Assembly (NCBI RefSeq): GCF_018476645.1
Contig: NZ_JAHCTB010000001.1
Location: 620,001-684,000 of the forward strand
DNA: 64,000 nucleotides
Direction of reading: 5' to 3'
Source: Aequorivita echinoideorum
Lineage (GTDB): Bacteria > Bacteroidota > Bacteroidia > Flavobacteriales > Flavobacteriaceae
The notes beneath the pieces are model-generated. The model did not search any database and was not told the DNA's origin. It saw only the letters and a list, made by a program, of their open reading frames with translations. The position numbers and the translations under genes are program-made. Of the stretch, positions 508 to 56,486 are shown one piece after another. Within the stretch, counting starts at the first letter, position 1. Each line of letters begins with the position of its first letter.

Positions 508-2721
508 ATGCCCAGACGTAAAAAGAAGAAAAAACAAAATATAGAAAATCTTTCCCAAACCATACTTGAAATTCTTCGGAAAGACCATTCACAAGCCTAT
601 ACTTACAAGCAAATTGCCTCAAAACTTAATCTTGACAATCCCAGTAGCCGAAACCATATAATAAAAAAATTGAAGGATTTACAGGGCAAAGGAACCATCA
701 AGGAAATAGAGCGCGGTAAATATATAATTACCCCATCCCAAAATTACTATACCGGAAAGGTGGATATCGCAGGCCGCGGTCAAGGTTACATAATAGTTGA
801 AGATCTTGAGGATGATATTTATGTGAAAAATAAAAACCTGAACAAAGCCCTTAACGGAGATATTGTTGAAGTTTACGTTTTCAAACGAAAAAGAGGCGGT
901 AAGAGTGAAGGTGAGGTAACACAGATACTGGAACGAAAGAGAACAGAGTTTGTTGGCACCATTCAAGTGCAGGAAAATTTTGCTTTCGTGGAGGTTTCGG
1001 ATCATAAAATGTATACGGATATTTTTGTTCCGAAGAATAAAATTAACGGAGCGAAAAATGGCGAAAAGGTTTTGGTGGCAATGGAAGATTGGCCGGAAAG
1101 AGCAGATTCTCCCTACGGAAATGTGTTAAAATCGCTTGGGATGCCGGGCGAGCACAATACCGAAATTCATTCCATATTGGCGCAATATGGCTTGCCCTAT
1201 GATTTTCCGAAGGAAGTGGAAGATTTTGCAAATAAACTGGATACTTCCATTAAAGATTCTGAAATAAAAAACCGAAGGGATATGCGCGAGGTATTGACCT
1301 TCACTATCGATCCTCGGGATGCAAAAGATTTTGACGATGCGCTTTCCTTTGAAAAACTTGAAAATGGAAACTACGAAATAGGAATTCACATTGCAGACGT
1401 TTCGCATTATGTGAAGCCCGGCAACGAGCTGGATGATGAAGCTTACGAGCGTGCCACATCAGTCTATTTGGTGGATAGGGTAGTACCAATGCTTCCAGAA
1501 ATTCTTTCAAACAATGCGTGTTCCCTTCGGCCGAATGAAGAAAAATATACTTTTTCAGCCGTTTTTGAGATTAATAAGAAAGCCGAAGTTTTAAAAAAAT
1601 GGTTTGGCAGAACCGTTATTTACAGTGATGCACGCTTTGCCTACGAAGAGGCGCAACATATCATTGAAAATCCTTCAGAGGAAACCCACATAATTCCTGC
1701 AAAAACTTCTATTACAAATAAAAAACGCGAGGTTGATAATTCTATAGCTGATGCAATTTTGGAAATGGACAGATTGGCAAAAATTCTTCGTCAAAAAAGA
1801 ATGCGTGCCGGTGCCATAAGTTTCGATAAAGTAGAGGTGAAATTTGTCCTGGACGAACAAAACAATCCGGAAGGAGTTTATTTTAAGGAAAGCAAGGATG
1901 CCAATAAACTCATTGAGGAATTTATGCTTTTGGCAAACCGAAGCGTTGCGGAATTTATTGGAAAACAGGAACCAAAGAAAACCTTTGTATACCGCGTGCA
2001 CGATGAGCCAGATGATGAAAAAATTGCGGCGCTGGAAAATATTATCAAGCGTTTTGGTTATAAAATGAATACCAAGGACAAACATTCCACAGCCAATTCC
2101 CTCAACAAATTATTGAAGGACGTACAAGGAAAAAAAGAACAAAATTTAATTGATACGCTAGCCATACGCAGTATGAGCAAGGCAGTTTATACCACGCATA
2201 ATATTGGCCATTATGGATTGGCATTCGATTATTATACGCATTTTACGTCGCCCATTAGAAGATATCCAGATGTTATGGTCCATCGGCTTTTACAGCATTA
2301 TTTGGATAACGGAAAATCTGCAAAGGAGGAGGAATATGAAGAGAAATGTAGCCACAGTAGCGATATGGAAAACCTGGCCGCAAATGCCGAACGCGACAGT
2401 GTAAAGTATATGCAAATAAAGTATATGATGGATCACGAGGAAAAAAATTTCCTTGGCGTTATTTCAGGTGTTACGGATTGGGGAATCTATGTGGAAATTA
2501 TTTCAAATAAATGCGAAGGAATGGTGCGGTTACAGGATTTAAAGGATGATCATTACGAGTTTGATAGGGATGAGTTTGCGGCAATCGGGAAAAAATCCAA
2601 AAATGTTTATAGGCTTGGGGATGAAGTTTATGTAAGTGTGAAAAATGCGGATTTGGTAAAAAAACATTTAGATTTCAATATGTTGGGACACCGAAGTGAA
2701 GTCAATCCAAAAAAATTATAA
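508..2721 (+). CDS. rnr: Ribonuclease R (3'-5' exoribonuclease)
   Basis: A 737-residue RNase R/VacB, the processive 3'-5' exoribonuclease that degrades structured RNA and helps with rRNA and tRNA quality control. A lysine-rich N-terminus is followed by a winged-helix-like region (about 13-70), cold-shock OB domains (about 80-230), the RNB catalytic domain with the metal-binding run DPRDAKDFDDALS (about 267-280), and a C-terminal S1 domain (about 645-715, FLGVISGVTDWGIYVEI). The conserved HFTSPIRRYPD motif is present near residue 580. Length is normal for the family. The ATG at 508 is followed at once by a basic stretch. A weak -7-like TACATTTA lies at 481-488 without a well-spaced -33 element. 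Confidence 0.96.
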   Translation: MPRRKKKKKQNIENLSQTILEILRKDHSQAYTYKQIASKLNLDNPSSRNHIIKKLKDLQGKGTIKEIERGKYIITPSQNYYTGKVDIAGRGQGYIIVEDLEDDIYVKNKNLNKALNGDIVEVYVFKRKRGGKSEGEVTQILERKRTEFVGTIQVQENFAFVEVSDHKMYTDIFVPKNKINGAKNGEKVLVAMEDWPERADSPYGNVLKSLGMPGEHNTEIHSILAQYGLPYDFPKEVEDFANKLDTSIKDSEIKNRRDMREVLTFTIDPRDAKDFDDALSFEKLENGNYEIGIHIADVSHYVKPGNELDDEAYERATSVYLVDRVVPMLPEILSNNACSLRPNEEKYTFSAVFEINKKAEVLKKWFGRTVIYSDARFAYEEAQHIIENPSEETHIIPAKTSITNKKREVDNSIADAILEMDRLAKILRQKRMRAGAISFDKVEVKFVLDEQNNPEGVYFKESKDANKLIEEFMLLANRSVAEFIGKQEPKKTFVYRVHDEPDDEKIAALENIIKRFGYKMNTKDKHSTANSLNKLLKDVQGKKEQNLIDTLAIRSMSKAVYTTHNIGHYGLAFDYYTHFTSPIRRYPDVMVHRLLQHYLDNGKSAKEEEYEEKCSHSSDMENLAANAERDSVKYMQIKYMMDHEEKNFLGVISGVTDWGIYVEIISNKCEGMVRLQDLKDDHYEFDRDEFAAIGKKSKNVYRLGDEVYVSVKNADLVKKHLDFNMLGHRSEVNPKKL

Positions 2722-2800
2722 CTTTTATTTCATCTGCATAACTTTTCTGCCAAAAGGTTAAGGAAACTTATCTTTAAAATTCTTGTATTTTTACCAGACT

Positions 2801-3514
2801 ATGTTAGACGGGTTACCCTATGCAGCTTTTTATGGATTTTTATTGGCCTTTGCCGTTGGCCCGGTTTTTTTTACGTTAATAGAAACAGCCATAACCAAGG
2901 GCATCAAGGCGGCTCTTTTTTTCGATTTTGGGGCATTGTTTGCAGATGTGGTTTTTATTACTATCGCTTTTTTCAGCACAAGCAAAATTCTTGAGAAAGT
3001 AAAACACGATCCTGGTCTGCTTATTTTCGGTGGTGCAATTTTAATGGCTTATGGCATCATTTCATACATACGCACCAATAAATCTATTTTCAGGATTGTG
3101 AGAGAACATTATGCTGTAAAAGTGAAAAAAAACCTGGGAGGCCTATTTTTAAAAGGTTTTCTTCTGAATTTTGTAAACTTCGGGGTACTCGCGGGATGGA
3201 TTGGTACACTAATTATGGCAAACGCGCTTACCACTACAGATAATGGGGTAATACTATTTCTGGCTACCGTTCTTATAACTTTCTTCGCAACAGATATTTT
3301 AAAAATCTTACTTGCAAAAAAACTGAAAAGTAAAATGACGCCCCGTTTTATTTTTAAAACTAAAATGTGGGTAAGTATTATTATTGCTGGCTTTGGATTA
3401 ATTTTATTGCTTCAGGGTGTTTTCCCGGGAGAGGTGAAAGCTGGGTTGGAAAAAATCCCGGGACAGCAACATCCATTGGAAAAACCTATTCCTCCAGTTG
3501 AGGAACCTTTATAA
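2801..3514 (+). CDS. LysE/RhtB-family amino-acid exporter-like membrane protein
   Basis: About 237 residues from the ATG at 2801 (an in-frame TTG at 2783 is less likely). It has six hydrophobic segments. The first helix, near residues 8-30, carries the family-typical AVGPVFFTLIETA text, as in LysE/RhtB exporters where a GPG/GPV stretch lies in the first helix. The C-terminus is a hydrophilic proline-rich tail. The expected role is export of amino acids or similar small molecules across the inner membrane; the substrate cannot be told from sequence. It follows rnr by about 80 bp and is followed directly by a bidirectional terminator-like hairpin. Confidence 0.8.
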   Translation: MLDGLPYAAFYGFLLAFAVGPVFFTLIETAITKGIKAALFFDFGALFADVVFITIAFFSTSKILEKVKHDPGLLIFGGAILMAYGIISYIRTNKSIFRIVREHYAVKVKKNLGGLFLKGFLLNFVNFGVLAGWIGTLIMANALTTTDNGVILFLATVLITFFATDILKILLAKKLKSKMTPRFIFKTKMWVSIIIAGFGLILLLQGVFPGEVKAGLEKIPGQQHPLEKPIPPVEEPL

Positions 3515-3632: not shown

Positions 3633-3703
3633 AGGTATCGAGCGGATTCGAACCGCTGTAGCAGCTTTTGCAGAGCTGAGCCTAGCCACTCGGCCACGAT
3701 ACC
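3633..3703 (-). tRNA. tRNA-Cys (anticodon GCA)
   Basis: Read on the minus strand, the acceptor stem GGTATCG (3703-3697) pairs with CGATACC (3640-3634). The D-arm region reads GCCGAGTGGCTAGGC. The anticodon stem CAGCT/AGCTG encloses the loop CTGCAAA, giving anticodon GCA. The T-arm AGCGG TTCGAAT CCGCT is canonical. CCA is not encoded, as is usual in this phylum. The gene is 71 bases, has its own -7 promoter element at 3716-3723, and is followed by a terminator hairpin. Confidence 0.96.
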
Positions 3704-3715
3704 CTATTAGGGTTG

Positions 3716-3723
3716 CAAATGTA
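3716..3723 (-). promoter_or_regulatory. Sigma-A -7 box for tRNA-Cys
   Basis: The minus strand reads TACATTTG, matching the Bacteroidota -7 consensus TAnnTTTG, 12 bases before the mature tRNA 5' end. Confidence 0.6.
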
Positions 3724-3760
3724 AAAAAATTAAACGTAAAATTCCTACTTAATTAGCAAA

Positions 3761-4117
3761 TTACCGTTTCTGCTTAAGAGTGACGCTTACTTCGGCAACA
3801 TCGCCACCAATAGGCGGATTCAGTTTTGCCACGGTGACTTTTACTTCATCCACCAATTCAATTTTCTGAAATACCGAATCCACAATGCGTTTGGCCACGT
3901 GTTCCAAAAGCTTTGAGCGTACCGCCATTTCATCCTTCACAATTTGCTGAAGTTGTACATAATCCACGGTATCATTAAGTTCGTCACTTACAGCCGCCCC
4001 TTTCAAATTTGCTTTTACCCAAATGTTTACAATGTAATCAGAACCTATTTGTCCTTCCTCTGTTAAGCAACCGTGATAGGCATAAATACGAATATTTTTT
4101 AAGTGAATGCTACCCAT
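3761..4117 (-). CDS. folB: Dihydroneopterin aldolase
   Basis: A 118-residue FolB. It converts 7,8-dihydroneopterin to 6-hydroxymethyl-dihydropterin plus glycolaldehyde in folate synthesis. Family features visible are the N-terminal IHLKNIRIYAYHGCLTEEGQIGSDYIVNIWV, which includes the YHG(C)xxEE substrate-binding segment, a DTVDYVQL motif, LLEHVAKRI, and a C-terminal VAKLNPPIGGDVAEVSVTL. Length is typical for the octameric enzyme. It is divergent from glnS, and each gene has its own -7 box in the shared 80-bp spacer. Confidence 0.94.
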   Translation of the reverse strand: MGSIHLKNIRIYAYHGCLTEEGQIGSDYIVNIWVKANLKGAAVSDELNDTVDYVQLQQIVKDEMAVRSKLLEHVAKRIVDSVFQKIELVDEVKVTVAKLNPPIGGDVAEVSVTLKQKR

Positions 4118-4131
4118 AAAATTTCTTTCTG

Positions 4132-4139
4132 CAAAGATA
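4132..4139 (-). promoter_or_regulatory. -7 box for folB
   Basis: The minus strand reads TATCTTTG, a perfect match to TAnnTTTG, about 15 bases upstream of the folB start codon. Confidence 0.55.
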
Positions 4140-4168
4140 GAAGAGAATTTCTTTTTCAGTTAATTGGT

Positions 4169-4176
4169 TACCTTTG
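4169..4176 (+). promoter_or_regulatory. -7 box for glnS
   Basis: TACCTTTG matches TAnnTTTG. Its last three bases are the in-frame TTG at 4174, which argues against that TTG as the glnS start and for the ATG at 4198, giving a leader of roughly 15-20 bases. Confidence 0.55.
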
Positions 4177-4197
4177 TACCTCTCAAAAAAAATTATA

Positions 4198-5877
4198 ATG
4201 ACAAACGAAGCCGCGCCGCTCAATTTCATAGAACACATCATTGAAGAAGATCTTTCAAAAGATTATAAAAGAGAGCAATTGTGCTTTCGGTTTCCACCGG
4301 AGCCTAATGGGTATCTCCACATTGGCCACGCCTCATCCATTTGCCTTAATTTTGGTCTTGGCGAAAGATATAATGCTCCGGTAAACCTGCGTTTTGATGA
4401 TACAAATCCAGCGAAGGAAGAACAGGAATTTGTGGATGCCATTAAAAAAGATATTTCATGGTTGGGTTATGAATGGGCTACGGAATGTTATGCATCAGAT
4501 TATTTTCAACAGTTGTATGATTGGGCCGTTCAAATGGTTAAGGATGGCAAGGCGTATGTAGATTCTCAGACTTCTGAGGCCATTGCCGAACAAAAAGGAA
4601 CACCTAATACCCCTGGTAAACCCAGTCCCTTCAGAAATCGTTCTGTTGAAGAAAATCTGGATTTGTTGGAGAAGATGAAAAACGGTGAAACCAAGGAAGG
4701 TGAGCACGTGCTGCGAGCCAAAATAAATATGGAATCACCAAATATGTTGATGCGCGACCCGGTTATGTACCGAACCATAAACAAACATCACCACAGAACG
4801 GGAACCGATTGGAAAATTTTCCCGATGTATGATTGGACGCACGGCGAGAGTGATTACATCGAGCAAGTATCACATTCCTTCTGCACACTTGAATTTCTGC
4901 CACACAGGGAGCTTTACGATTGGTTCTTGGACCAAGTGTACGATTCCAATAAATTGCGCCCGAAACAACGAGAATTCGCCCGTAGAAATTTAAGCCACAC
5001 CGTTGTTAGCAAGCGTAAATTAGCACAATTGGTCAGCAACGGTGTAGTTACCGGTTGGGATGATCCACGCATGCCCACTATTTCTGGGTTGCGTAGAAGA
5101 GGATATACGCCAGATTCCATTAAAAATTTTGCAGATAGTATTGGCGTTGGCAAGCGCGAAAACTTAATTGATGTCTCTCATTTGGAATTTAATGTTCGTG
5201 AAGATCTCAATAAAAAAGCGCCGAGAATAATGGTTGTTTTGGATCCCGTGAAATTGGTAATTGACAATTATCCCGAGGGAAAAACCGAAATGTTCGAGGC
5301 GGAAAATAATCAGGAAGATGAAAGTGCAGGAAGTAGGGAAGTGCCATTTTCGAAGGAACTTTTTATTGAAAGAGAAGATTTTCTTGAATCTGCCAATAGT
5401 AAATTTTTCCGATTGACCTTAGGGAAGGAAGTACGTTTAAAAAACGCATACATCATAAAAGGTGAAAGTGTAGTAAAAGATGCAGATGGAAACATTACTG
5501 AAATCCATTGTACATACGACCCAGACAGCAGGAGTGGTAGCGGTAGCGAAGCTTCATTAAGAAAGGTAAAAGGAACATTGCATTGGGTTTCTGCGGAACA
5601 CGCGCTGCCGGTTGAAGTTCGACTTTACGATCGTTTGTTTACTGAAGCCTCTCCAGATACCAACAAGGAAAGGGATTTTATGGAATTCATCAATCCGGAT
5701 TCTTTGAAAGTAATAACCGGTTATGCAGAACCAAGTGTAAAAAATGCGAAACCTGAGGATAATTTTCAGTTTCAGAGGTTGGGCTATTTTGTGGTGGATA
5801 GGGATACAACCACAGAGCGAATTGTGTTCAACAGAACCGTTCCCTTGCGCGATTCTTGGGCTAAGATTGCCGAGTAG
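4198..5877 (+). CDS. glnS: Glutaminyl-tRNA synthetase
   Basis: About 559 residues. This class I synthetase charges tRNA-Gln with glutamine. The HIGH motif is in FPPEPNGYLHIGHAS near residues 34-48. The KMSKS counterpart reads VVSKRKL (about 264-270). It is followed by the GWDDPRMPTISGLRRRG segment typical of GlnRS and by the two beta-barrel anticodon-binding domains. The residue text clearly favours GlnRS over GluRS; a separate gltX lies at 9.1-10.6 kb, so direct Gln-tRNA charging is available. An acidic insert (about 365-385, EAENNQEDESAG) lies in the anticodon domain. The start is ATG 4198, because the upstream TTG lies in the promoter. Confidence 0.96.
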   Translation: MTNEAAPLNFIEHIIEEDLSKDYKREQLCFRFPPEPNGYLHIGHASSICLNFGLGERYNAPVNLRFDDTNPAKEEQEFVDAIKKDISWLGYEWATECYASDYFQQLYDWAVQMVKDGKAYVDSQTSEAIAEQKGTPNTPGKPSPFRNRSVEENLDLLEKMKNGETKEGEHVLRAKINMESPNMLMRDPVMYRTINKHHHRTGTDWKIFPMYDWTHGESDYIEQVSHSFCTLEFLPHRELYDWFLDQVYDSNKLRPKQREFARRNLSHTVVSKRKLAQLVSNGVVTGWDDPRMPTISGLRRRGYTPDSIKNFADSIGVGKRENLIDVSHLEFNVREDLNKKAPRIMVVLDPVKLVIDNYPEGKTEMFEAENNQEDESAGSREVPFSKELFIEREDFLESANSKFFRLTLGKEVRLKNAYIIKGESVVKDADGNITEIHCTYDPDSRSGSGSEASLRKVKGTLHWVSAEHALPVEVRLYDRLFTEASPDTNKERDFMEFINPDSLKVITGYAEPSVKNAKPEDNFQFQRLGYFVVDRDTTTERIVFNRTVPLRDSWAKIAE

Positions 5878-6201
5878 TCATATATTTCCGTTAATGAATT
5901 TATAGCTCTGCAAAACGGCCTTTACCGTGGAATCTTTAAAAACTTTTCGAGGTTTGGAGAATCCGTGTTTGGTTATTGAATTAAAATTCTATTTATTGAT
6001 GAGCATCGATGGTCTTCAACAAACCTCTCGATTTAACATTTACCACAATATAAAACCACTTTTTTTAAGAAAATTTGGCAATAATTTTTTTCTTTTATGA
6101 CAAATTTATATAATCGAAATCATCTATTAACCGGTTATTAACAGCACGCTCATATCCCATTAGTTAATTTTGTCATTATTAACTTTAAACAACAAACTAA
6201 A
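5878..6201. other. Intergenic region with a long-loop inverted repeat and operon promoter
   Basis: No credible gene in these 324 bases. TCGAGGTTTG at 5947-5956 is complementary to CAAACCTC-TCGA at 6020-6031 with one extra base pair region, leaving a loop of about 63 bases; it may be chance or a decayed element. The last 40 bases hold the promoter of the YtxH operon. No RNA fold or tRNA was recognised. Confidence 0.4.
6165..6172 (+). promoter_or_regulatory. -7 box for the YtxH/holin-like operon
   Basis: TAATTTTG matches TAnnTTTG, 30 bases upstream of the first start codon of a three-gene run. Confidence 0.5.
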
Positions 6202-6579
6202 ATGGCATCAAATACAGGTCAAACGCTACTTGCAATATTAACTGGAGCTGCTATAGGCGCAGGAATAGGGATTCTTTATGCTCCAGATAAAGGTTCAAAC
6301 ACTAGAACTAAATTAAGCAAAGAAGCTAAGAAAGCACAAAAGCAATTGAACAAACAAATTCAAGAAACTACTTCAAATTTGAGTTCAAAAGCGCAAAGCG
6401 CAAAATTTAGCTTCGAACAAAAATTGAACGAAACTCTCTCTTCAGCGAGCTACAAAGCAGATGAAATCCTTTTGGCTATGGAAGATAAGTTGGAAGCATT
6501 GCGTAGGCAGAATGCAAAATTACAGATTGATTCAACCGTTGACCAAGCTAAAGCGACTGCGAAAAAAGTAATATCGTAA
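6202..6579 (+). CDS. YtxH-domain protein
   Basis: 125 residues. The N-terminus has one glycine-rich membrane-associating helix (about 5-27, TLLAILTGAAIGAGIGILYAPDKGS), the signature of YtxH/GvpP-like proteins, where the helix ends in an (Y)APxxG motif. The remainder is a long amphipathic, Lys/Gln/Ser-rich helix (about 33-120) that should form a coiled coil. YtxH proteins are linked to general stress in Firmicutes; the function in Bacteroidota is unknown. It is first in an operon of three, 2 bases from the next gene, which suggests the three products act together at the inner membrane. Confidence 0.85.
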   Translation: MASNTGQTLLAILTGAAIGAGIGILYAPDKGSNTRTKLSKEAKKAQKQLNKQIQETTSNLSSKAQSAKFSFEQKLNETLSSASYKADEILLAMEDKLEALRRQNAKLQIDSTVDQAKATAKKVIS

Positions 6580-9103: not shown

Positions 9104-10611
9104 TCGATAAATGCGATTGCTCTTTCTATTCTGAAAATGCTTTCTTTTTTGCCAAGAATGGAGAGAATATCAAAAACATCTGGGCCTTTCATTTCGCCTA
9201 CCAAGGCCAAACGCAGAGGCATCATCACTTTTCCGAAGCCAATATTTTCTGAAGTAATCCACCCTTTTATTTTTTCTGAGATAGTTGCTGCCGAAAAATC
9301 ATCAATTTCATTTAAAATTGAAACAACCTCATTTAAAAGTATCGAAGTTTCATCCTTAAATGCTTTTTCTGCGGCTTTTGGATCATAGCTATTTGGCGTT
9401 TCAAAGAAAAAGCTGCCCTGTTCCCACAAATCCTCCATAAATGTTGCGCGTTCCTTTAAAAGCGAAACAATGCTTTCAAGATTTTGCGAAGCTTCAATGT
9501 TTTTATTTTTCAGCAAATCAGCGAATTGTGAAGCCAATGCGCTGTTATCCATCTTTTGAAGATATTGATGCTGAAACCATTTCGTCTTTTCAGGATCAAA
9601 TTTGGCTCCCGCTTTATGGACACGCTCCAGCTCAAAGGTATTTACCAAATCCTTCAAACTGAAAATTTCCTGTTCCGTTCCTGGATTCCAGCCCAAAAAT
9701 GCGAGCATATTTATAACGGCTTCGGGCAAATAACCATCTTCCCTGTATCCAGAAAACATTTCTCCTTCAGCAGGTTGCCATTGCAGCGGGAAAACCGGGA
9801 AACCCATTTTATCTCCATCTCGTTTGCTCAACTTTCCATTGCCGGTTGGTTTTAAAATCAAAGGCAAATGCGCAAATTGTGGTGCGGTCCAACCAAAGGC
9901 TCTGTACAAAAGAATATGTAGCGCAAGGGAAGGAAGCCACTCTTCCCCGCGGATGACGTGGGTTATCTCCATTAAATGATCGTCCACAATATTTGCGAGG
10001 TGATACGTGGGCATACCATCGCTCTTAAAAAGAACTTTATCGTCGAGAATACTGGTATCCACGTGCATTTCGCCGCGAATAATATCATTTAAATGAAGAT
10101 TTTCCTTTTCAGGAGATTTAAAACGGATAACAAATTCCTCACCAGCATCAATCTTTTTTTGTGTTTCTTCTTTGGAAAGGGTAAGTGAATTTTTCAATTT
10201 CTGTCGATTGTGCCAATTGTATATGAAAGTTTTCCCTTTCTCTTCGTGATCTTTTCGGTGCGCGTCCAGTTCTTCCGCAGTGTCAAAAGCATAATACGCA
10301 TTGCCGGATTCAATTAAATCATCTGCATATTTTCTGTAAATATGCTTTCGCTCGCTCTGCCTGTAAGGTCCGCAATTGCCTTCTTTACCCGGTCCTTCAT
10401 TATAAGGAATCTTTAGCCAATTTAAAGCTTCAATTATGTAAGCTTCAGCACCTTCCACATATCGGTTTTGGTCTGTGTCCTCAATTCGCAATAAAAAATC
10501 ACCACCGTGTTTTTTCGCAAATAAATAATTGAACAACGCCGTGCGCACACCGCCAATATGTAATGGACCCGTGGGACTGGGAGCAAACCGAACCCGAACT
10601 TTTTCAGACAT
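9100..10611 (-). CDS. gltX: Glutamyl-tRNA synthetase
   Basis: About 503 residues from the ATG at 10611 (the frame is open further upstream, but MSEKVRVRFAPSPTGPLHIGG is the normal start). The HIGH motif is PSPTGPLHIGG (about 10-20) and the KMSKS motif reads KLSKRDG (about 254-260). A helical anticodon-binding domain follows. It loads glutamate on tRNA-Glu. The -7 box TACCTTTG lies at 10647-10640 on the minus strand. The gene converges on the barrel gene with 4 bases shared at the stops. Confidence 0.96.
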   Translation of the reverse strand: MSEKVRVRFAPSPTGPLHIGGVRTALFNYLFAKKHGGDFLLRIEDTDQNRYVEGAEAYIIEALNWLKIPYNEGPGKEGNCGPYRQSERKHIYRKYADDLIESGNAYYAFDTAEELDAHRKDHEEKGKTFIYNWHNRQKLKNSLTLSKEETQKKIDAGEEFVIRFKSPEKENLHLNDIIRGEMHVDTSILDDKVLFKSDGMPTYHLANIVDDHLMEITHVIRGEEWLPSLALHILLYRAFGWTAPQFAHLPLILKPTGNGKLSKRDGDKMGFPVFPLQWQPAEGEMFSGYREDGYLPEAVINMLAFLGWNPGTEQEIFSLKDLVNTFELERVHKAGAKFDPEKTKWFQHQYLQKMDNSALASQFADLLKNKNIEASQNLESIVSLLKERATFMEDLWEQGSFFFETPNSYDPKAAEKAFKDETSILLNEVVSILNEIDDFSAATISEKIKGWITSENIGFGKVMMPLRLALVGEMKGPDVFDILSILGKKESIFRIERAIAFID

Positions 10612-50140: not shown

Positions 50141-51094
50141 ATGCTTACAAGTTTTTTCGGCAAATCTAATCCCGTAAATTATTTGATTTTAGGCATATTT
50201 ATAGCGCTTGGTTATTTGTTTACGTGCTTTTTTAAAAATCCCGTTGAAATCTCCGTAACCTCAATAGTCATCAATATTACTTTGATGGCCGTTGCGGTGC
50301 TTTCCATGCTGCTTTTGGATTTCATTATCAGGAAGAATGACATTACCCGCACCAACACATACGCTATTTTATTTTTCACTTTCTTTCTGCTTGTGCTTCC
50401 GCAGGTGTTTTTGGCACCAAAAATATTGCTCGCAACTGGCTTTTTGCTCTTGGCTTTGCGTAGAATCATAAGCTTACGGACGGACAAAAATGCGGCAAAA
50501 AAAATTCTGGACGCCAGTATTTGGATTACGGTAGCTTCTTTTTTTCAGTTTTACACATTGCTTTTTTTTATCCCACTTTGGATCGCCATCATCCAAAAAC
50601 CGAATTCAGATTATAAGCAAATGTTGATGCCCATTACGGGTTTTGTTGGCACTTTTCTTATCTGCACTGCGTATCATTTTCTCGTGGAAGATTCATTTCA
50701 ATGGTTTTTTAATTGGAAAGAAAAAATAAGTTTTGATTTTTCAGCGTATAATTCACTTGGGCTTTTACTGCCGGCAGCCATAATCTTCGCTTTTGTAATA
50801 TGGACCGGCGTCAATCGAGGATTTAGGTTTTCAACCCTTTCAACCAAAGAAAAACCCACCTATTTGTTGCTATTCTATTGTCTGCTCGTCAGCATATTTG
50901 TGGCACTGGCAGGACCGGAAAAAACGGGAGCTGAACTTCTTTTTTTATTGCCCTTTGCATCCATAATCTGTGCAAATTACATTGAGGCGCGTGAAAACCC
51001 AAAATCTTCTGAAAAGGATATCAGTGAATTTTGGTTCAAGGAAATACAGTTGTGGTTGGTTGTTTTGCTTCCGGTTTTGATGCTTTTTATATGA
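50141..51094 (+). CDS. Polytopic membrane protein (DUF6427-like)
   Basis: 317 residues with eight to ten hydrophobic helices and few charged loops. Start MLTSFFGKSNPVNYLILGIFIALGYLFTCFFK is typical of a Flavobacteriia-only family I recall as DUF6427. Function unknown. It overlaps the start of the next gene by 4 bases (ATGA), implying coupled translation with the putative nuclease. No ligand motif is visible. Confidence 0.75.
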   Translation: MLTSFFGKSNPVNYLILGIFIALGYLFTCFFKNPVEISVTSIVINITLMAVAVLSMLLLDFIIRKNDITRTNTYAILFFTFFLLVLPQVFLAPKILLATGFLLLALRRIISLRTDKNAAKKILDASIWITVASFFQFYTLLFFIPLWIAIIQKPNSDYKQMLMPITGFVGTFLICTAYHFLVEDSFQWFFNWKEKISFDFSAYNSLGLLLPAAIIFAFVIWTGVNRGFRFSTLSTKEKPTYLLLFYCLLVSIFVALAGPEKTGAELLFLLPFASIICANYIEARENPKSSEKDISEFWFKEIQLWLVVLLPVLMLFI

Positions 51095-51738
51095 AATTGG
51101 ATTTGGAAAAAATTGAAAATGAGTTGAAAAATCGCTGTCACTATCACTACGAATGGGGTCAAAAGCAAAATGATATTTGGGACGCCCGGACCAATTTTAT
51201 TTACGAAACCACGGACTGGGAAATGTTGATTGAAAAAATAAAGAATTTGATTACTTCTGAAAATTTAGATAAAAAAAGAGCCTTTAATTACGCCGCCAAC
51301 CGCTGGTTTAACTTTTGGAGCGCCATGGCCGTGGAACAGATTTTTTCTGAAATGCCACAAATTGAAAAAGTACCTCAAAGCAAAGACCATAAAAAAGATT
51401 TCTATTTCTGCGGAATTCCATTTGACCATAAAACATCGGTTTTTCCGAAGCATTTGAAGTGTACTTTTGAAGAGGCAAAAAATTCAAAAAGAACGCTCAT
51501 AGATTGGTTCTACAAAAATCAAAGCAATCAAAAAAGAAATCATTTTCACAATAGGCTTTTTGTCGTGGTTTTTGATAAAAATGGCGCTCACTGGAAGCTA
51601 AAAGCGGAAATAGGCTTGTTAAAAAATGCCATTGAAGCATACGTTTCCAATTTCAAAATGGAACAATTGGAACAATTCAATTTCACCGAAGAAACGCAAA
51701 CGGTAAGTGATGTAATATTTGTAAATAAAAATAATTAA
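51091..51738 (+). CDS. Putative PD-(D/E)XK nuclease partnered with the D12 methyltransferase
   Basis: 215 residues from ATG 51091. No family is recognised with certainty. An N-terminal charged region is followed by a helix NRWFNFWSAMAVEQIF (Glu82) and then KDFYFCGIPFDHKTSVFPK, in which Asp103, Asp112 and Lys114 give a D-x8-DxK pattern around a hydrophobic strand, as in PD-(D/E)XK nucleases. The C-terminal half has a basic RNHFHNRLFVVVFDKNG strand. The next native gene (54723) encodes an adenine methyltransferase, so a restriction role is likely but unproven. It is coupled upstream to the DUF6427-like gene; the Sau3AI-like cassette begins one base after its stop. Confidence 0.55.
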   Translation: MKLDLEKIENELKNRCHYHYEWGQKQNDIWDARTNFIYETTDWEMLIEKIKNLITSENLDKKRAFNYAANRWFNFWSAMAVEQIFSEMPQIEKVPQSKDHKKDFYFCGIPFDHKTSVFPKHLKCTFEEAKNSKRTLIDWFYKNQSNQKRNHFHNRLFVVVFDKNGAHWKLKAEIGLLKNAIEAYVSNFKMEQLEQFNFTEETQTVSDVIFVNKNN

Positions 51739-51747
51739 CTATCTTTG
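51719..51747 (+). promoter_or_regulatory. Promoter of the Sau3AI-like cassette
   Basis: A -33 TTG at 51719-51721 (inside the 3' end of the putative nuclease gene), 18 bases, then TATCTTTG at 51740-51747. If the junction is at 51738/51739, the cassette uses a -33 element of the host gene. Confidence 0.6.
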
Positions 51748-51790
51748 GACATATTCTGTCTAAAATAGATTTGTCTAAACATATTTGGTC
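51748..51790 (+). promoter_or_regulatory. Three 15-bp-period repeats between promoter and regulator start
   Basis: GTC triplets within T-rich contexts recur at 51758, 51773 and 51788 (TTCTGTC, ATTTGTC, TTTGGTC), and GTCTAAA occurs at 51758-51764 and 51773-51779. GACATATTCTGTC at 51748-51760 is a GACA/TGTC inverted repeat. The ACATATT heptamer occurs at 51749 and 51779. This is the position expected for controller (C) protein operators in type II systems. Confidence 0.55.
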
Positions 51791-51792
51791 TT

Positions 51793-52101
51793 TTGAAATC
51801 ACTTGGGGAAAAATTAAAGGATTATAGAAAATCCAAGGGCTTAATTCTTCGGAAAGCTGCTGCACTGCTAGATATCGATCAATCGTTAATTAGTAAGTTT
51901 GAGAAAAATGAAAGAAAGCCAACTGAAGAACAAATCCAGCGTATGGCAGACTTTTACAAAATCCCATTAAATGAATTAATGATAGATTGGCTCTCGGAAA
52001 AACTTGCTGAAAATTTAGCACCTTATGATGTTTCTTCTCAAGTGTTTCAGTTTGCAGAAGAAAAAATGAATTTTTATAAAACTCAAGCAAATGGAAAATA
52101 A
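51793..52101 (+). CDS. XRE-family regulator (putative controller protein of the R-M cassette)
   Basis: 102 residues from TTG 51793. The HTH_XRE domain spans about residues 3-60 (LGEKLKDYRKSKGLILRKAAALLDIDQSLISKFEKNERKPTEEQIQRMADFYKI), with recognition helix in QSLISKFEKNERKP. The C-terminal 40 residues form a helical tail (LSEKLAENLAPYDVSSQVFQFAEEKMNF). It lies upstream of the methyltransferase gene and overlaps it by 11 bases. The repeats in front of the gene suggest autoregulation. The TTG start is chosen because the domain begins right there and no ATG precedes it. Confidence 0.85.
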   Translation: MKSLGEKLKDYRKSKGLILRKAAALLDIDQSLISKFEKNERKPTEEQIQRMADFYKIPLNELMIDWLSEKLAENLAPYDVSSQVFQFAEEKMNFYKTQANGK

Positions 52102-53338
52102 GAAAATGAAAGTTGCAGAATTATTTGCAGGAGTTGGAGGGTTTCGTCTTGGACTTGAAAAATGCAATTTCGAAGTTGTTTGGAGCAATCAGTGGGAGCC
52201 TTCGACTAAAACCCAACACGCTTCAATAGTTTATGAAGCTCGTTTTGGATGTGAAAATCATTCGAATGAGGATATAAACGAAATAGTGACAAGGAATGTA
52301 GAAGAAATTCCTGACCACGATTTGTTAGTTGGAGGATTTCCTTGTCAAGATTATTCTGTTGCGACAACATTACATAACTCAAAAGGCTTAAAAGGTAAAA
52401 AAGGTGTTCTTTGGTGGTCTATTCACCGAATTTTGGAAGAAAAAAAGAACAAACCAAAATACCTTTTTCTAGAAAATGTAGACCGACTTTTAAAATCGCC
52501 AGCAAAACAAAGAGGTCGTGATTTTGCAGTAATGTTACAAAGTTTAAATGAACTTGGATATGCAGTAGAATGGCGTGTAATTAATGCAGCAGAATACGGA
52601 ATGCCACAAAGAAGGAGAAGAATTTTCTTTATTGGTTATCACAAATCAACGGAAATATATAAAAGACTTGAAAAAGCAGACAAAATTGATTGGTTAACAA
52701 AAGAAGGAACTATTGCAAATGCTTTTCCTGTTAACAATACTAAATCAATTCAAGAAATTGAACTAAAAGGAGATTTATTAGAAATTACCAACAACTTTAA
52801 CAAAACAGGTAAATTATCACCTTTCCAAAATACAGGATTGCTTTTAAACGGCAAAGTTTATACAACTAAAACAGAAGCTAGTTACGAAGGTAACTTCACA
52901 GTTTTAGGAGACATTTTGCAAAATGGAGAAGTTACGAAAGAGTTTTTCATAGATGATAAAGACAAGGACAAATGGGAATATTTAAAAGGTTCAAAAACCA
53001 TTGAAAGAATTTCAAGCGAAGGGCATAAGTACAAATATTCAGAAGGCGGAATGATTTATCCAGACGCTTTAGATAATGCTTCAAGAACAATAATAACGGG
53101 AGAAGGTGGAAAATCGCCTTCAAGATTCAAACACGTAGTTGTTTCGGACAGAGGATTGCGAAGACTAACACCAGTTGAATTAGAAAGATTAAATATGTTC
53201 CCAGACAATCATACCAAAATTGAAGGAATTACAGATACAAAACGTGCGTTTTTTATGGGGAATGCTCTAGTTGTTGGTGTAATCGAAAAAATAGGAAAAG
53301 AACTTTACAAACAAATAAACCAATTTGAATATGCTTGA
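52091..53338 (+). CDS. DNA (cytosine-5) methyltransferase, Sau3AI-type
   Basis: 415 residues, M.Sau3AI-like. Motif I: VAELFAGVGGFRLGLE (8-23). Motif IV with nucleophile Cys85: GGFPCQDYSVAT. Motif VI: LFLENVDRLL. Motif VIII: GMPQRRRRIFFIG. Motif X: GNALVVGV near the end. The target-recognition region (about 190-350) carries long charged text. Predicted to methylate the C of GATC by analogy to M.Sau3AI; only a search or assay can confirm. It overlaps the XRE gene and the nuclease gene. Confidence 0.92.
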   Translation: MENKKMKVAELFAGVGGFRLGLEKCNFEVVWSNQWEPSTKTQHASIVYEARFGCENHSNEDINEIVTRNVEEIPDHDLLVGGFPCQDYSVATTLHNSKGLKGKKGVLWWSIHRILEEKKNKPKYLFLENVDRLLKSPAKQRGRDFAVMLQSLNELGYAVEWRVINAAEYGMPQRRRRIFFIGYHKSTEIYKRLEKADKIDWLTKEGTIANAFPVNNTKSIQEIELKGDLLEITNNFNKTGKLSPFQNTGLLLNGKVYTTKTEASYEGNFTVLGDILQNGEVTKEFFIDDKDKDKWEYLKGSKTIERISSEGHKYKYSEGGMIYPDALDNASRTIITGEGGKSPSRFKHVVVSDRGLRRLTPVELERLNMFPDNHTKIEGITDTKRAFFMGNALVVGVIEKIGKELYKQINQFEYA

Positions 53339-54722
53339 TATTACTTCAGCAGATTCAATAATTGAGTTTGCGAAAAAATTAAAAAATCAAACTTTACGAG
53401 AAGTTTGTGGCGAAGAAATTGAAAAACACGGTTACAAAGGAAAAGGAAATTTTGGTCAGATTTTAGAAAAATTCTTTTTCGGTTACGAACCAAATTCAGA
53501 CGCAGAACCAGACTTCAAAGAAGTAGGAATTGAACTTAAATCAAGTCCATTAAAAGCATTAAGAAATGGAGAATTTCGTTCAAAAGAAAGGCTTGTCTTA
53601 AATATTATCAACTATTTAGAAGTACATAATGAAGACTTTGAAAATAGCTCGTTTTGGAAGAAAAATGCTCATTTGCTTTTAGTATTTTATCTGCACGATA
53701 AAGATTTAGACTTACTCGATTACCTAATTAAATTAGTTGGCGGTTGGCAATATCCAAACGAAGATTTGAAAATTATCAAACACGATTGGGAAACTATAAA
53801 CCAAAAAATAAAAGACGGTAAGGCACACGAATTATCGGAAGGAGATACATTTTATCTTGGAGCTTGCACAAAAGGTTCAACAGCTTTAAAGTCCTATCGC
53901 AACCAACCTTTTAATGATGAAAAAGCAAAACAAAGAGCATATTCGCTTAAACAAGGTTATGTAAATCACATAATAGCAAATATCGCTCAAGAAGAAACTG
54001 CGGTTTACGGAAAGATAATTGAGCAACCTGAAATCCTTGATTTAGTTCAATCAATTGAGGAGATTGTAATTTCAAAATTTCAACCGTTTTATGGAAAATC
54101 AGCAGAACAAATTGAACAAGAATTAGGCTTAGAATTAAATCAAAAAGCTAAAAGTTATTTTGCCAATTTGACTAACGCAATACTCGGACTTGAACTCGGA
54201 CAAAAAATTGAAGAGTTTGAAAAAGCTGATATTCAAGTAAAAACTATTCGTTTGAAAGAAAACAATTTACCAAAAGAAGATATTTCATTTCCAACTTTTG
54301 AGTACCAAGAACTAATCGAAACTGATTGGGAAGATTCGGATTTTAAAAACATTTTGGAAAGCAAATTTTTCTTTGTTTTTTACCAATTTGAGGGAGAAAA
54401 TTTAATCTTAAGAAAGGTTAAGTTTTGGAATATGTCACATTCAGATATTATAGAAGCTAAATCTGTTTGGCACAAAATGAGAACAACTGTTTCTAAAGGA
54501 GAAATTGTAAAAGAAGTAACGAATAAAGGTGTTAGAAAGACTTATTTCCCAAAGAAAACGGAAAATAGAATTAGTCACGTTAGACCACACGCAAGAAATG
54601 CATATGACACTTATGAATTACCTATTGCAGACAAACTAACAGGATTGAGTGAATTTACAAAACATTGTTTTTGGCTGAATGCAAATTATGTAAGAGACGA
54701 AATTTATTTGAAAAATTATTAA
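53331..54722 (+). CDS. Sau3AI/MutH-type restriction endonuclease
   Basis: 463 residues from ATG 53331 (frame opens at TTG 53325). The N-terminal MutH-like domain carries EIEKHGYKGKGNFGQILEKFFFGYEP then DFKEVGIELKSSPLKAL with Asp61, Glu68 and Lys70, the D-x6-ExK active site shared by MutH and Sau3AI. The later region holds KGSTALKSYRNQPFNDEKAKQRAYSLKQGYVN, also typical. The C-terminal half (about 250-463) fits the second, DNA-binding MutH-like domain of Sau3AI. It overlaps the methyltransferase gene by 8 bases and its stop is contiguous with the next ATG. Confidence 0.85.
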   Translation: MLDITSADSIIEFAKKLKNQTLREVCGEEIEKHGYKGKGNFGQILEKFFFGYEPNSDAEPDFKEVGIELKSSPLKALRNGEFRSKERLVLNIINYLEVHNEDFENSSFWKKNAHLLLVFYLHDKDLDLLDYLIKLVGGWQYPNEDLKIIKHDWETINQKIKDGKAHELSEGDTFYLGACTKGSTALKSYRNQPFNDEKAKQRAYSLKQGYVNHIIANIAQEETAVYGKIIEQPEILDLVQSIEEIVISKFQPFYGKSAEQIEQELGLELNQKAKSYFANLTNAILGLELGQKIEEFEKADIQVKTIRLKENNLPKEDISFPTFEYQELIETDWEDSDFKNILESKFFFVFYQFEGENLILRKVKFWNMSHSDIIEAKSVWHKMRTTVSKGEIVKEVTNKGVRKTYFPKKTENRISHVRPHARNAYDTYELPIADKLTGLSEFTKHCFWLNANYVRDEIYLKNY

Positions 54723-55760
54723 ATGGGCTTAGGTTATATAGGCAGCAAACACAAGCTTTCAAGCTTCATTTTTGAAGCTATTTCAGAAACCGTTGGCGAT
54801 ATTTCAAATAAAACATTTTGCGATCTTTTTGCGGGAACCGGCGTTGTGGGCAGAACGTTCAAACCCTTCGTAAAACAAGTAATTGCAAATGATGTTGAAT
54901 TTTACAGTTTTGTGCTAAACCGCAATTATATTGGGAACACCAAGGATTTTGAATTCGAAAGTTTATTGGTTGAATTGAATTCTCTGAAAGGAAAAAAAGG
55001 CTTTGTGTTCGAAAATTATTCCGAAGGCGGAAAGGAAGGAAGAAACTATTTCACTTCAGAAAATGGGATGAAAATTGATGCCATCCGCCTTCATATTGAA
55101 ACCTTAAAAAATAATGCGGAAATTGATGATGACCAATATTACTTTCTATTGGCTTCACTTTTGGAAAGCGCGGATAAAGTGGCGAATACGGCTTCGGTTT
55201 ATGGCGCATATTTAAAACATATAAAAACTTCGGCTTCAAAAAAATTGGTGCTAAAGCCTGCGCTTTTTCAACAAACAAAGGGAAACCATCACGTTTTTCA
55301 GCAAGATGCGAATACGCTAATCAAAAATATAATTGGCGATATACTTTATTTGGATCCACCGTATAATGCACGGCAATACGGTGCCAATTATCATTTACTG
55401 AATACTATCGCAAAATATGATACCTTTGTTCCCAAGGGAAAAACGGGGCTTCGTGATTATTATAAAAGCGATTGGTGCCGAAGTGGAGAAGCACTTCAAC
55501 GTTTTGAAGATTTGATTGAGAGTGCCCAATTCCCATATATTTTCCTGAGTTACAATAACGAAGGTTTAATGAGCCGGAGTGATGTGGAAAATGTGATGAA
55601 ACGCTTCGGAAAATACAGTCTCAAAACGAAGGAATATCAACGTTTTAAGGCAGATAAAACAGAAAGCCGAAACCACAAAGCCTCAAAAACTATTGAATAT
55701 TTGCATATTTTAGAAAAGAAATATATTAAGAAATCCTGCAAGGTCTCTAAGACCTTGTAG
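54723..55760 (+). CDS. D12-class DNA adenine-N6 methyltransferase
   Basis: 345 residues. Motif I YIGSKHKLSSFIFEAIS (the D12-typical GxKxxL start) and DLFAGTGVVGRTF, and motif IV DILYLDPPYNARQYGANYHLLNTIA, where DPPY is the catalytic loop. It methylates adenine in a short DNA site; the target is unknown. The ATG directly follows the stop codon of the Sau3AI-like gene, exactly where the native upstream gene would have abutted it. Its last codons (SCKVSKTL) lie within a palindromic repeat, so the C-terminus has been altered by that repeat. Confidence 0.88.
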   Translation: MGLGYIGSKHKLSSFIFEAISETVGDISNKTFCDLFAGTGVVGRTFKPFVKQVIANDVEFYSFVLNRNYIGNTKDFEFESLLVELNSLKGKKGFVFENYSEGGKEGRNYFTSENGMKIDAIRLHIETLKNNAEIDDDQYYFLLASLLESADKVANTASVYGAYLKHIKTSASKKLVLKPALFQQTKGNHHVFQQDANTLIKNIIGDILYLDPPYNARQYGANYHLLNTIAKYDTFVPKGKTGLRDYYKSDWCRSGEALQRFEDLIESAQFPYIFLSYNNEGLMSRSDVENVMKRFGKYSLKTKEYQRFKADKTESRNHKASKTIEYLHILEKKYIKKSCKVSKTL

Positions 55761-55811: not shown

Positions 55812-55871
55812 AGCGAATAAAATCTCGCAGGAGCAAGTAGAATCTTGCGCTTGCCAATAAAAACAAACCCT

Positions 55872-56486
55872 ATGTTTTCAGACAAAGCCAATAAAATTTT
55901 TGCCGAAGTAATCAATAAATATCACGAAGCAAATACGGTTGATCAAGATTTTGCCAATCCCTACAATAAGGACAACCAGTTGCTGGAACATCTTCTTTAT
56001 AGAAAATGCTGGATAGACACCGTGCAATGGCATTACGAGGATATTATCCGCGACCCCAATATTGATCCCGTTGCGGCACTTAAATTGAAAAGGCAGATTG
56101 ATGCTTCCAACCAAGACCGCACAGATATGGTAGAATACATTGATAGTTACTTTTTGGCAAAATACAAGGATATAACGCCCAAGAAAAACGCCACCATAAA
56201 TACGGAAAGCCCGGCGTGGGGAATAGACCGTCTTTCAATCTTGGCGCTTAAGATTTTTCATATGAACGAGGAGGCAAACCGGACTGAGGCTTCGCAAGAA
56301 CACCAAATGGCGTGCAAGGCAAAACTGAATATTTTACTGGAGCAGCGCGTAGACCTTAGCACGGCAATCAACCAACTGCTGGAGGATATTGAGAATGGGG
56401 ACAAATATATGAAGGTTTACAAACAGATGAAGATGTATAACGATGAAGAATTGAACCCAGTGCTGCGCGGAAAAAAGACTTCCTAA
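55872..56486 (+). CDS. DUF4254-family protein
   Basis: 204 residues from ATG 55872. Soluble, helical and charged. The text LLYRKCWIDTVQWHYEDIIRDPNIDPVAALKLKRQIDASNQDRTDMVEYIDSYF and ESPAWGIDRLSILALKIFHMNEEANR is characteristic of DUF4254, a Bacteroidota family. Function unknown. It precedes a GT9 gene by 19 bases and the pair recurs in Bacteroidota, so it may be a partner in glycan transfer; this is inference. Confidence 0.85.
   Translation: MFSDKANKIFAEVINKYHEANTVDQDFANPYNKDNQLLEHLLYRKCWIDTVQWHYEDIIRDPNIDPVAALKLKRQIDASNQDRTDMVEYIDSYFLAKYKDITPKKNATINTESPAWGIDRLSILALKIFHMNEEANRTEASQEHQMACKAKLNILLEQRVDLSTAINQLLEDIENGDKYMKVYKQMKMYNDEELNPVLRGKKTS

Follow-up and report, generated by a model that had tools for sequence, protein, structure and literature searches.

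The window, a stretch of 64,000 nucleotides from the genome of the marine bacterium Aequorivita echinoideorum (family Flavobacteriaceae; contig NZ_JAHCTB010000001.1, positions 620,001 to 684,000), contains a restriction-modification (R-M) locus at 51091-55760, counted from its first letter; the genes of this locus and its two flanking genes are all located on the plus strand. At the left end of this locus, gene 1 (51091-51738) encodes a 215-residue putative restriction endonuclease of the PD-(D/E)XK type, as suggested by an alignment of 54 homologues and by co-occurrence with the gene at the right end; its presumed site is CATG. The latter encodes a D12-class N6-adenine methyltransferase (MTase; 54723-55760; PF02086, E 2.7e-51), presumed to act on CATG as well, and belongs to a subfamily that neighbours ICEA nucleases. 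Between these two outer genes lies a Sau3AI-type R-M cassette (51739-54722), which spans the distance from the TAA of gene 1 to the ATG of D12 and is lacking in 25 other Aequorivita genomes having both outer genes. Very probably, two complete type II R-M systems are nested here, the cassette having entered an old pair at a recurrent accessory slot.

The cassette consists of an XRE (HTH_3) regulator and candidate controller (51793-52101; PF01381, E 2.8e-12), a C5-cytosine DNA methyltransferase with the presumed site GATC (52091-53338; PF00145, E 2.1e-71; PADLOC MTase_II, E 1.6e-176) and, overlapping the latter gene by 8 bp, a type II restriction endonuclease of the Sau3AI family (GATC; 53331-54722; 543 bits to NCBIfam NF040973 with a cut-off of 300; PDB 4pxg, E 2.8e-72). 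Cutting and methylation of GATC are predicted from membership in this family. The nuclease gene ends with the 12-mer AAAAATTATTAA (54711-54722), whose TAA abuts the D12 ATG. The XRE gene starts with TTG in the window, and with ATG at the same place in most homologues. The control-protein model of PADLOC matches it weakly (E 0.007); both the gene and an inverted repeat, TTTGGACA-n5-TGTCTAAA (51744-51764), are present, and similar repeats upstream of XRE in most homologous cassettes make this a candidate operator. A candidate promoter of the Bacteroidetes type (51718-51747) consists of TTTG at 51718-51721, 18 nt, and TATCTTTG at 51740-51747, so that its upstream box lies within the final codons of gene 1. 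The Bacteroidetes promoter consensus is TTTG/TAnnTTTG, and TAnnTTTG is found in most homologous cassettes. The GC content of the cassette is below that of most flanking DNA. An earlier note, made from the letters of this DNA alone, had described the inserted unit, its gene order and its neighbours; every position was confirmed base for base, and the three inner genes by their family matches as well.

Comparison within the genus reveals the empty site. Both outer genes (gene 1 as a gene or remnant, and D12) are present in the same 26 of 28 Aequorivita genomes. In 19 of these 26, the two reading frames share 4 bp, typically AAATGAAYTAYATAGG, where the gene 1 TGA overlaps the D12 ATG; in one of the 19 (G018; genomes and loci are cited by our G and L numbers), gene 1 is broken and D12 intact. 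The overlapping pairs are flanked by DUF6427 upstream and DUF4254 downstream, with two exceptions upstream, i.e. a stretch without detected DUF6427 in G024 and a DUF6427 gene 800 bp off in G004. A Sau3AI-type nuclease is found in one of the 28 genomes, that of the window; in the other six genomes with both outer genes, different inserts fill the junction. G009 and G027 have neither gene 1 nor D12: DUF6427 and DUF4254 are about 320 bp apart, with a short and weak D12-like relic (E 0.04-0.12) at the place of the pair.

Outside the genus, the cassette occurs by itself. Sau3AI-type matches at E 0.001 are present in 21 of 397 genomes of the family, some of them fragmentary or weak. Seven other genera (one genome each) have a nuclease 86-92% identical to that of the window, preceded by XRE and C5-MTase; G226 has a broken unit, and the XRE of G301 has diverged. 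These seven genomes lack gene 1 and D12, and neither gene lies alongside any of 13 Sau3AI cassettes (L220-L232, two of them broken). Homology between the cassettes ends on the right with the nuclease gene and on the left in the promoter-operator region, TAnnTTTGGACA...TGTCTAAA. The cassette is horizontally acquired and mobile. Together with the empty sites, its solitary occurrence in other genera confirms the predicted insertion between the outer genes, which is real. The check proposed at the time, namely to look for relatives in which the outer genes abut without the cassette, found them in the 19 genomes mentioned, including the one with a broken gene 1. The description of the target as a stop/start junction needs correction, since the relatives have the TGA/ATG overlap in place of TAA/ATG. 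The window also differs from them at both gene ends, as gene 1 is longer by two codons and D12 has two more codons at its start.

The identity of the window XRE amounts to 58-62% with six cassette relatives and 40% with that of G301, as compared to 83-92% for MTase and nuclease. This much stronger divergence suggests an exchange or a fast evolution of the regulator. On plasmids and phages, no close relatives of the nuclease were found: identities are at most 43.3% among the matches listed (12 of 20 plasmid records, 3 of 3 phage records). A search of viral contigs for a Sau3AI-type nuclease yielded no match. In two genera (G222 and G189), the cassette contains a 389-residue open reading frame (ORF) between C5-MTase and nuclease (L221, reversed, 5407-6576; L224, 5391-6560); the L224 copy has no Pfam match above the cut-off.

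The junction between gene 1 and D12 is where inserts accumulate. In a survey with the window as query (itself not counted, eight duplicate loci removed), spacing exceeds the median by more than 150 bp at 19 of 79 gene 1|D12 junctions, but at 2 of 59 for DUF6427|gene 1 (itself a tight junction), 2 of 61 for D12|DUF4254, none of 50 for DUF4254|GT9 and 3 of 54 for purD|DUF6427. When restricted to the 56 loci with all four genes, the excess counts are 13 at gene 1|D12, 2 and 2. The threshold of 150 bp was set after the gaps had been seen, and L164 (about 130 bp) falls below it. Three loci carry C5-MTase cassettes: L106 (where XRE and C5-MTase are followed by a nuclease of another kind, weakly matching GIY-YIG at E 0.011), L111 (XRE and a truncated C5-MTase beside a pair of XRE and NOV_C-like genes) and L165 from Epilithonimonas hominis (C5-MTase and a Sau3AI nuclease, 64% identical). 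ICEA is inserted in L138, and an ICEA remnant in L186. Toxin-antitoxin (TA) modules are of the UPF0175-DUF3368 type in G011, G023 and G026 (families scanned for G011), DUF6364-PIN_3 in G007 with a remnant in G025 (judged by eye), and DUF433-DUF5615 in G005. An XRE/NOV_C-like module (weak) is found in L170, and an AAA_14/DUF4143 ATPase in L113. Thus, of 12 inserts in which genes could be recognised, 11 are R-M, TA or XRE-plus-nuclease-like modules or remnants thereof.

Two points count against reading too much into this tally. Seven inserts (L104, L107, L110, L145, L150, L151, L157) contain no recognisable gene, no family scan having been made, and within the 19 inserts a relationship is apparent among three Mesonia loci, among three sister loci and among three TA loci. 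Since the loci are partly related, 19 inserts do not equal 19 events. Because relatives hold other, often self-preserving modules at the same spot, the gene 1|D12 junction looks like a repeatedly used docking site.

Two inserts deserve a separate remark. In L106, a 312-residue protein with the weak match to GIY-YIG (9219-10154) replaces the Sau3AI nuclease, and the preceding C5-MTase is 84% identical to that of the window, possibly a swap of GATC nucleases. The small module of XRE and a 156-residue NOV_C-like protein, accompanied in L111 and L170 by an ORF of 78-79 residues, occupies the gene 1|D12 slot in two lineages (L111, 8423-9399; L170, 2187-3149) and lies within a C5-MTase gene in a third (L226, reversed, about 3666-4399); it seems to insert into R-M genes.

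The C5-MTase cassettes at the junction did not arrive together. In a first tree, the C5-MTases of L106, L111 and G212 form a group (100/100) that excludes the window sequence. In a second tree, from which the partial sequences of L111 and G226 were excluded, the approximately unbiased (AU) test rejects a clade of window and L106 (p 0.0004) as well as a clade of window, L106 and L165 (p 0.0001); the first tree was known before this test was made. These rejections imply that C5-MTase cassettes reached the junction at least twice independently, or three times if L165 is counted apart. Such repetition would also be expected if there were no slot and the joint inheritance of CATG and GATC specificities were selected as a two-specificity island. 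We consider such functional pairing improbable, as the 13 Sau3AI cassettes without an adjacent gene 1 or D12 speak against it, and the slot also accepts TA modules, ICEA and an ATPase.

The repeats at the insertion edges were compared as well. At their left edge, the TA inserts of G011, G023 and G026 carry a second copy of 50 bp from the start of D12 (48, 47 and 43 of 50 positions identical). L165 has a 16-bp match to the D12 start (15 of 16), which is within the range of 200 shuffles, and at the window cassette the left flank has no similarity to the D12 start above that of shuffles. The two 12-mers that the earlier note had singled out, AAAAATAATTAA (51727-51738) and AAAAATTATTAA, are present and identical at 11 of 12 positions. 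Among 325 mechanically defined ORF ends (100+ codons, 424 kb of the window's genome), 55 of 52,650 pairs of TAA-ended ends (0.1%) are identical at 11 or more of 12 positions, and the stretch contains numerous further repeats of comparable or greater length. The right copy starts with a conserved Lys codon of the nuclease, and the stop is located there in most homologues. Because of this codon and the many comparable repeats, and because the left flank is unlike the D12 start, the 12-mer is poor evidence of a target-site duplication, and we rejected it as such.

The resident system would consist of the outer genes. Gene 1 is found at E<=2.5e-20 in 27 of the 397 family genomes, and every one of the 27 possesses a D12 of the same subfamily (identity of at least 58%), including that of G228, which is cut by a contig end. 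Nine weak gene 1 matches (E 2e-11 to 7e-4), one of them in the control genome G364, were not counted. The remaining 370 genomes contain one intact D12 of this subfamily (G278), remnants in three, and D12s with at most 43% identity in 10. We regard the outer genes as halves of one older R-M pair, as had been claimed, because of this co-occurrence, the broken gene 1 beside an intact D12 in G018, and the avoidance of CATG discussed below; that the pair behaves as one R-M system is supported. The order is reversed in L127 (D12, then gene 1), and in L128 the gene 1 homologue adjoins an N6/N4 MTase. Other arrangements fit a cognate pair less well: in G113 the outer genes are about 31 kb apart, no D12 was found beside gene 1 in 19 of 80 gene 1 loci (some ending near a contig edge), and an MTase next to gene 1 is not evident in 4 of 12 opened loci (L129, L139, L140, L148).

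Elsewhere in the window's genome (L087, contig C11, 252500-258500), a gene for a 372-residue gene 1-like protein overlaps an N6/N4 MTase gene (707-2326 and 2322-3437); the protein is 21-33% identical to gene 1 over parts, and an adjoining ORF resembles an IS110-type transposase by eye. An IMG/VR contig classed as viral (L349, 4001-5610) contains an adjacent gene 1-D12 pair with 46% and 55% identity. Fusions of D12 and gene 1, suspected from weak gene 1 matches in long ORFs, were dismissed: the sole candidate opened (G250/L194) is a succinate dehydrogenase flavoprotein by eye.

Gene 1 is likely a nuclease. Four residues are invariant in the alignment of 54 homologues, i.e. E82, D103, D112 and K114 (D112-x-K114), so that gene 1 carries the conserved D...(D/E)-x-K catalytic set. 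The spacing is as expected of PD-(D/E)XK enzymes. Four loci with stops in range (L131, L142, L157, L165) were left out of the alignment, and about 20 further gene 1 loci never entered it. An AlphaFold2 model has a predicted local distance difference test score of 91 and a predicted template modelling score of 0.88, with D112 and K114 on one strand. This motif suggests a PD-(D/E)XK fold, a part of the earlier claim to which the database and structure searches lend little: gene 1 matches no family in Pfam or PADLOC and nothing below E 0.98 in NCBIfam, Foldseek with the model yields nothing at E<=0.001, and VIA-align gives Z scores of 2.7-3.5 to Card1, EcoO109I, PspGI and Ecl18kI, with unrelated helical matches scoring higher. 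Gene 1 does not match PF05315 (ICEA) either, so by this model it is no ICEA-family partner, and no ICEA match was found in G000.

The neighbours of D12 point to its probable site. In L138, from a Thiothrix genome, an ICEA/NlaIII-family nuclease (PF05315, E 1.8e-71) stands between gene 1 and D12, and a remnant of one lies between the two genes in G240 (L186). An ICEA nuclease directly precedes a D12 of the same subfamily in G057, in G579 (a remnant) and in a viral contig (L345, L346; the viral contig being L346). ICEA is rare, being found in 1 of 149 family genomes and, as a fragment, in 1 of 395 genomes of a phylum sample. ICEA1 of Helicobacter pylori is reported to be CATG-specific and to resemble NlaIII (PMC13340068). 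From this specificity and the association of the D12 subfamily with ICEA nucleases, CATG is the likely site. A further CATG system (PMC6191088) was set aside as a comparison, as it uses a C5-MTase.

Avoidance of CATG agrees with this assignment. In the window's genome, no tetranucleotide palindrome is more strongly avoided than CATG (419 seen versus 1193 expected in 424 kb). Six genomes that carry the pair (G000, G005, G006, G008, G022 and G113, the first five from Aequorivita) have observed/expected ratios (o/e) of 0.30-0.61, versus 0.78-0.94 for six genomes of the family that lack it (absence of D12 checked). Pooled o/e for loci of at least 10 kb (L157 and L239 included) is 0.45 in 31 non-Aequorivita gene 1-D12 loci (488/1075) versus 0.84 in 15 control loci (490/580; Mann-Whitney p 5e-6). 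The controls come from Sau3AI-bearing genomes, from which the G212 and G288 contexts, having gene 1, and the short L233 were excluded. In 14 loci with gene 1 and no D12 nearby, it is 0.46 (261/569). Some observations run counter to this pattern. G009 and G027, both without the pair, have ratios of 0.37 and 0.39, which we explain by a recent loss of the pair, their D12 relics being weak; some gene 1-D12 loci show little avoidance (L116, 0.78; L106, 0.76; L138, 0.76); and the Aequorivita genomes and many of the compared loci are phylogenetically non-independent. Taken together, CATG is probably the site of the gene 1-D12 system.

For GATC, avoidance is less telling. All 14 genome samples avoid it, with or without a Sau3AI cassette (o/e 0.47-0.84), a finding that weakens any inference to the cassette, and as the avoidance is general we dropped it as a sign of Sau3AI activity in the window strain. 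In pooled loci of Sau3AI-bearing genomes, the avoidance is stronger (0.48 versus 0.75, p 0.001). The two methylation specificities at one locus proposed in the earlier note are nevertheless well supported as a prediction, with GATC suggested by the Sau3AI family and CATG by the context of D12.

With these results, it appears quite unlikely that gene 1 and D12 are not cognate, D12 being an orphan MTase with a regulatory role and gene 1 a conserved protein of another kind. That gene 1 has neither a family in the databases nor a clear structural match would suit this explanation, as would the solitary D12 in G278 and the four loci without an evident adjacent MTase. Against it stand the co-occurrence in all 27 genomes, the broken gene 1 with D12 kept in G018, the swapped order in L127, the pairing of gene 1 homologues with another MTase class in L087 and L128, the invariant E/D/D-x-K set and the avoidance of CATG.

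Very unlikely, in our view, is an ancestral composite locus of five genes from which most Aequorivita species deleted the inner cassette. Cassettes of the same kind between gene 1 and D12 in L106, L111 and L165 are compatible with this scenario, but the deletion would have had to re-form the 4-bp overlap cleanly in 19 genomes, the closest cassette relatives lie elsewhere, and unrelated inserts occupy the same point in several loci. A single ancestral cassette is rejected by the tree test, in which the C5-MTases of window and L106 do not form one clade. A contamination or assembly artefact that placed a foreign cassette in the contig is hardly conceivable: the low GC content would fit, but the locus lies on a single contig of 775 kb, in a genome of 2.93 Mb that is 99.96% complete and 0.06% contaminated, with flanks fully syntenic with the genus, and three other loci have C5-MTase cassettes at the same junction.

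The sequences around one TA insert form a mosaic. G011 and G023/G026 are 59-63% identical over the initial 300 bp of gene 1. Identity rises to 93-99% in a tract made up of the final ~190 bp of gene 1, the insert and the opening bases of D12, falls to 87-89% in the next 300 bp of D12, and is 73-75% thereafter. The 5' part of gene 1 in G011 resembles G013 (92% and 76%). Two details complicate the picture: identity returns to 92-95% in the final third of D12, and the 3' end of gene 1 is also 95-99% like that of the empty G002, which implies that the mosaic tract is not tied to the insert alone. From this mosaic we infer homologous recombination carrying the contents of the slot; through recombination in the genes on either side, these contents have probably passed from species to species.

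The most likely sequence of events starts with an old chromosomal pair, gene 1 as nuclease and D12, both most likely acting on CATG. The acquired Sau3AI-type cassette entered at the 4-bp overlap without breaking either gene. As it brings its own promoter and a candidate operator, it could be expressed at a foreign site, with the MTase ahead of the nuclease. Gene 1 would retain its upstream promoter. D12 has lost its coupling to gene 1, and its transcripts would arise both by read-through and at the cassette promoter; with its ATG right behind the stop of the nuclease gene, D12 probably depends on the cassette operon for expression. Both sites would then be methylated in the cell, CATG at N6 of adenine and GATC at C5 of cytosine, and DNA in which either mark is missing would be restricted, a scheme of regulation and protection read from gene anatomy. 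The conserved gene 1 and D12 would be probable homology arms for passing slot contents between species. With some doubt on our own part, we suggest that the overlap of a resident R-M operon may be a privileged docking site, where entry harms neither gene and where addiction modules are shielded from loss and exchanged via the R and M homology arms. The newcomer would be shielded because a deletion reaching the resident MTase exposes the genome to the resident nuclease.

Each of the two R-M systems is of a known kind. The cassette resembles the Sau3AI system in its nuclease, which matches the equivalog model and the sequence of the crystal structure, and in the C5-MTase partner; it differs by the XRE upstream and by its position within another R-M operon. 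Insertion of R-M genes with a long target duplication was reportedly described by Nobusato et al. in 2000 (in Gene). The present case is similar in that R-M or TA modules sit at a gene boundary and three Aequorivita TA inserts duplicate the D12 start, whereas the window cassette has no detectable duplication and the target is an R-M operon, hit repeatedly. M.NlaIII is D12-class. With the CATG systems NlaIII and HpyI (iceA1-hpyIM), the resident pair shares a D12-class MTase of a subfamily adjoining ICEA/NlaIII nucleases and the presumed site CATG; it differs in gene 1, which matches no ICEA model and has the conserved D...D-x-K motif. The place beside hpyIM in H. pylori is reported to hold iceA1 or iceA2 as alternative genes (PMC13340068), which is reminiscent of the alternatives at the gene 1|D12 slot. 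The immigration control region of Listeria is reported as a chromosomal hot spot of R-M and defence genes (PMC10059834). As in the slot, one place there holds different defence modules across strains; the slot described here is a 4-bp overlap inside one R-M operon, whereas the Listeria region appears to be bounded by ordinary genes.

Insertion of R-M and TA modules and target duplication being known already, the apparently new part is the reusable site inside an R-M operon. Our literature searches found no precedent for it, and a genome comparison of mobile R-M forms from 2010 may contain one. Since a single genus offers this defined site empty, filled and decayed, one can trace how addiction modules are gained, exchanged and lost. 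Furthermore, gene 1 would represent a nuclease family without a match in the searched libraries that seemingly cuts CATG, possibly a non-homologous isoschizomer of NlaIII served by an MTase subfamily common to ICEA-type enzymes. If the docking-site reading is true, R-M operons would be collectors and exchangers of addiction modules, beyond being passengers in defence islands.

The genes flanking the locus are conserved neighbours. Upstream, the gene of the DUF6427 membrane protein (50141-51094; PF19992, E 3.6e-9) overlaps gene 1 by 4 bp in the window. Downstream, the DUF4254 gene (55845-56486; PF14063, E 6.1e-65; conserved by synteny) is given with the coordinates of the listed ORF, and its true start may be internal.

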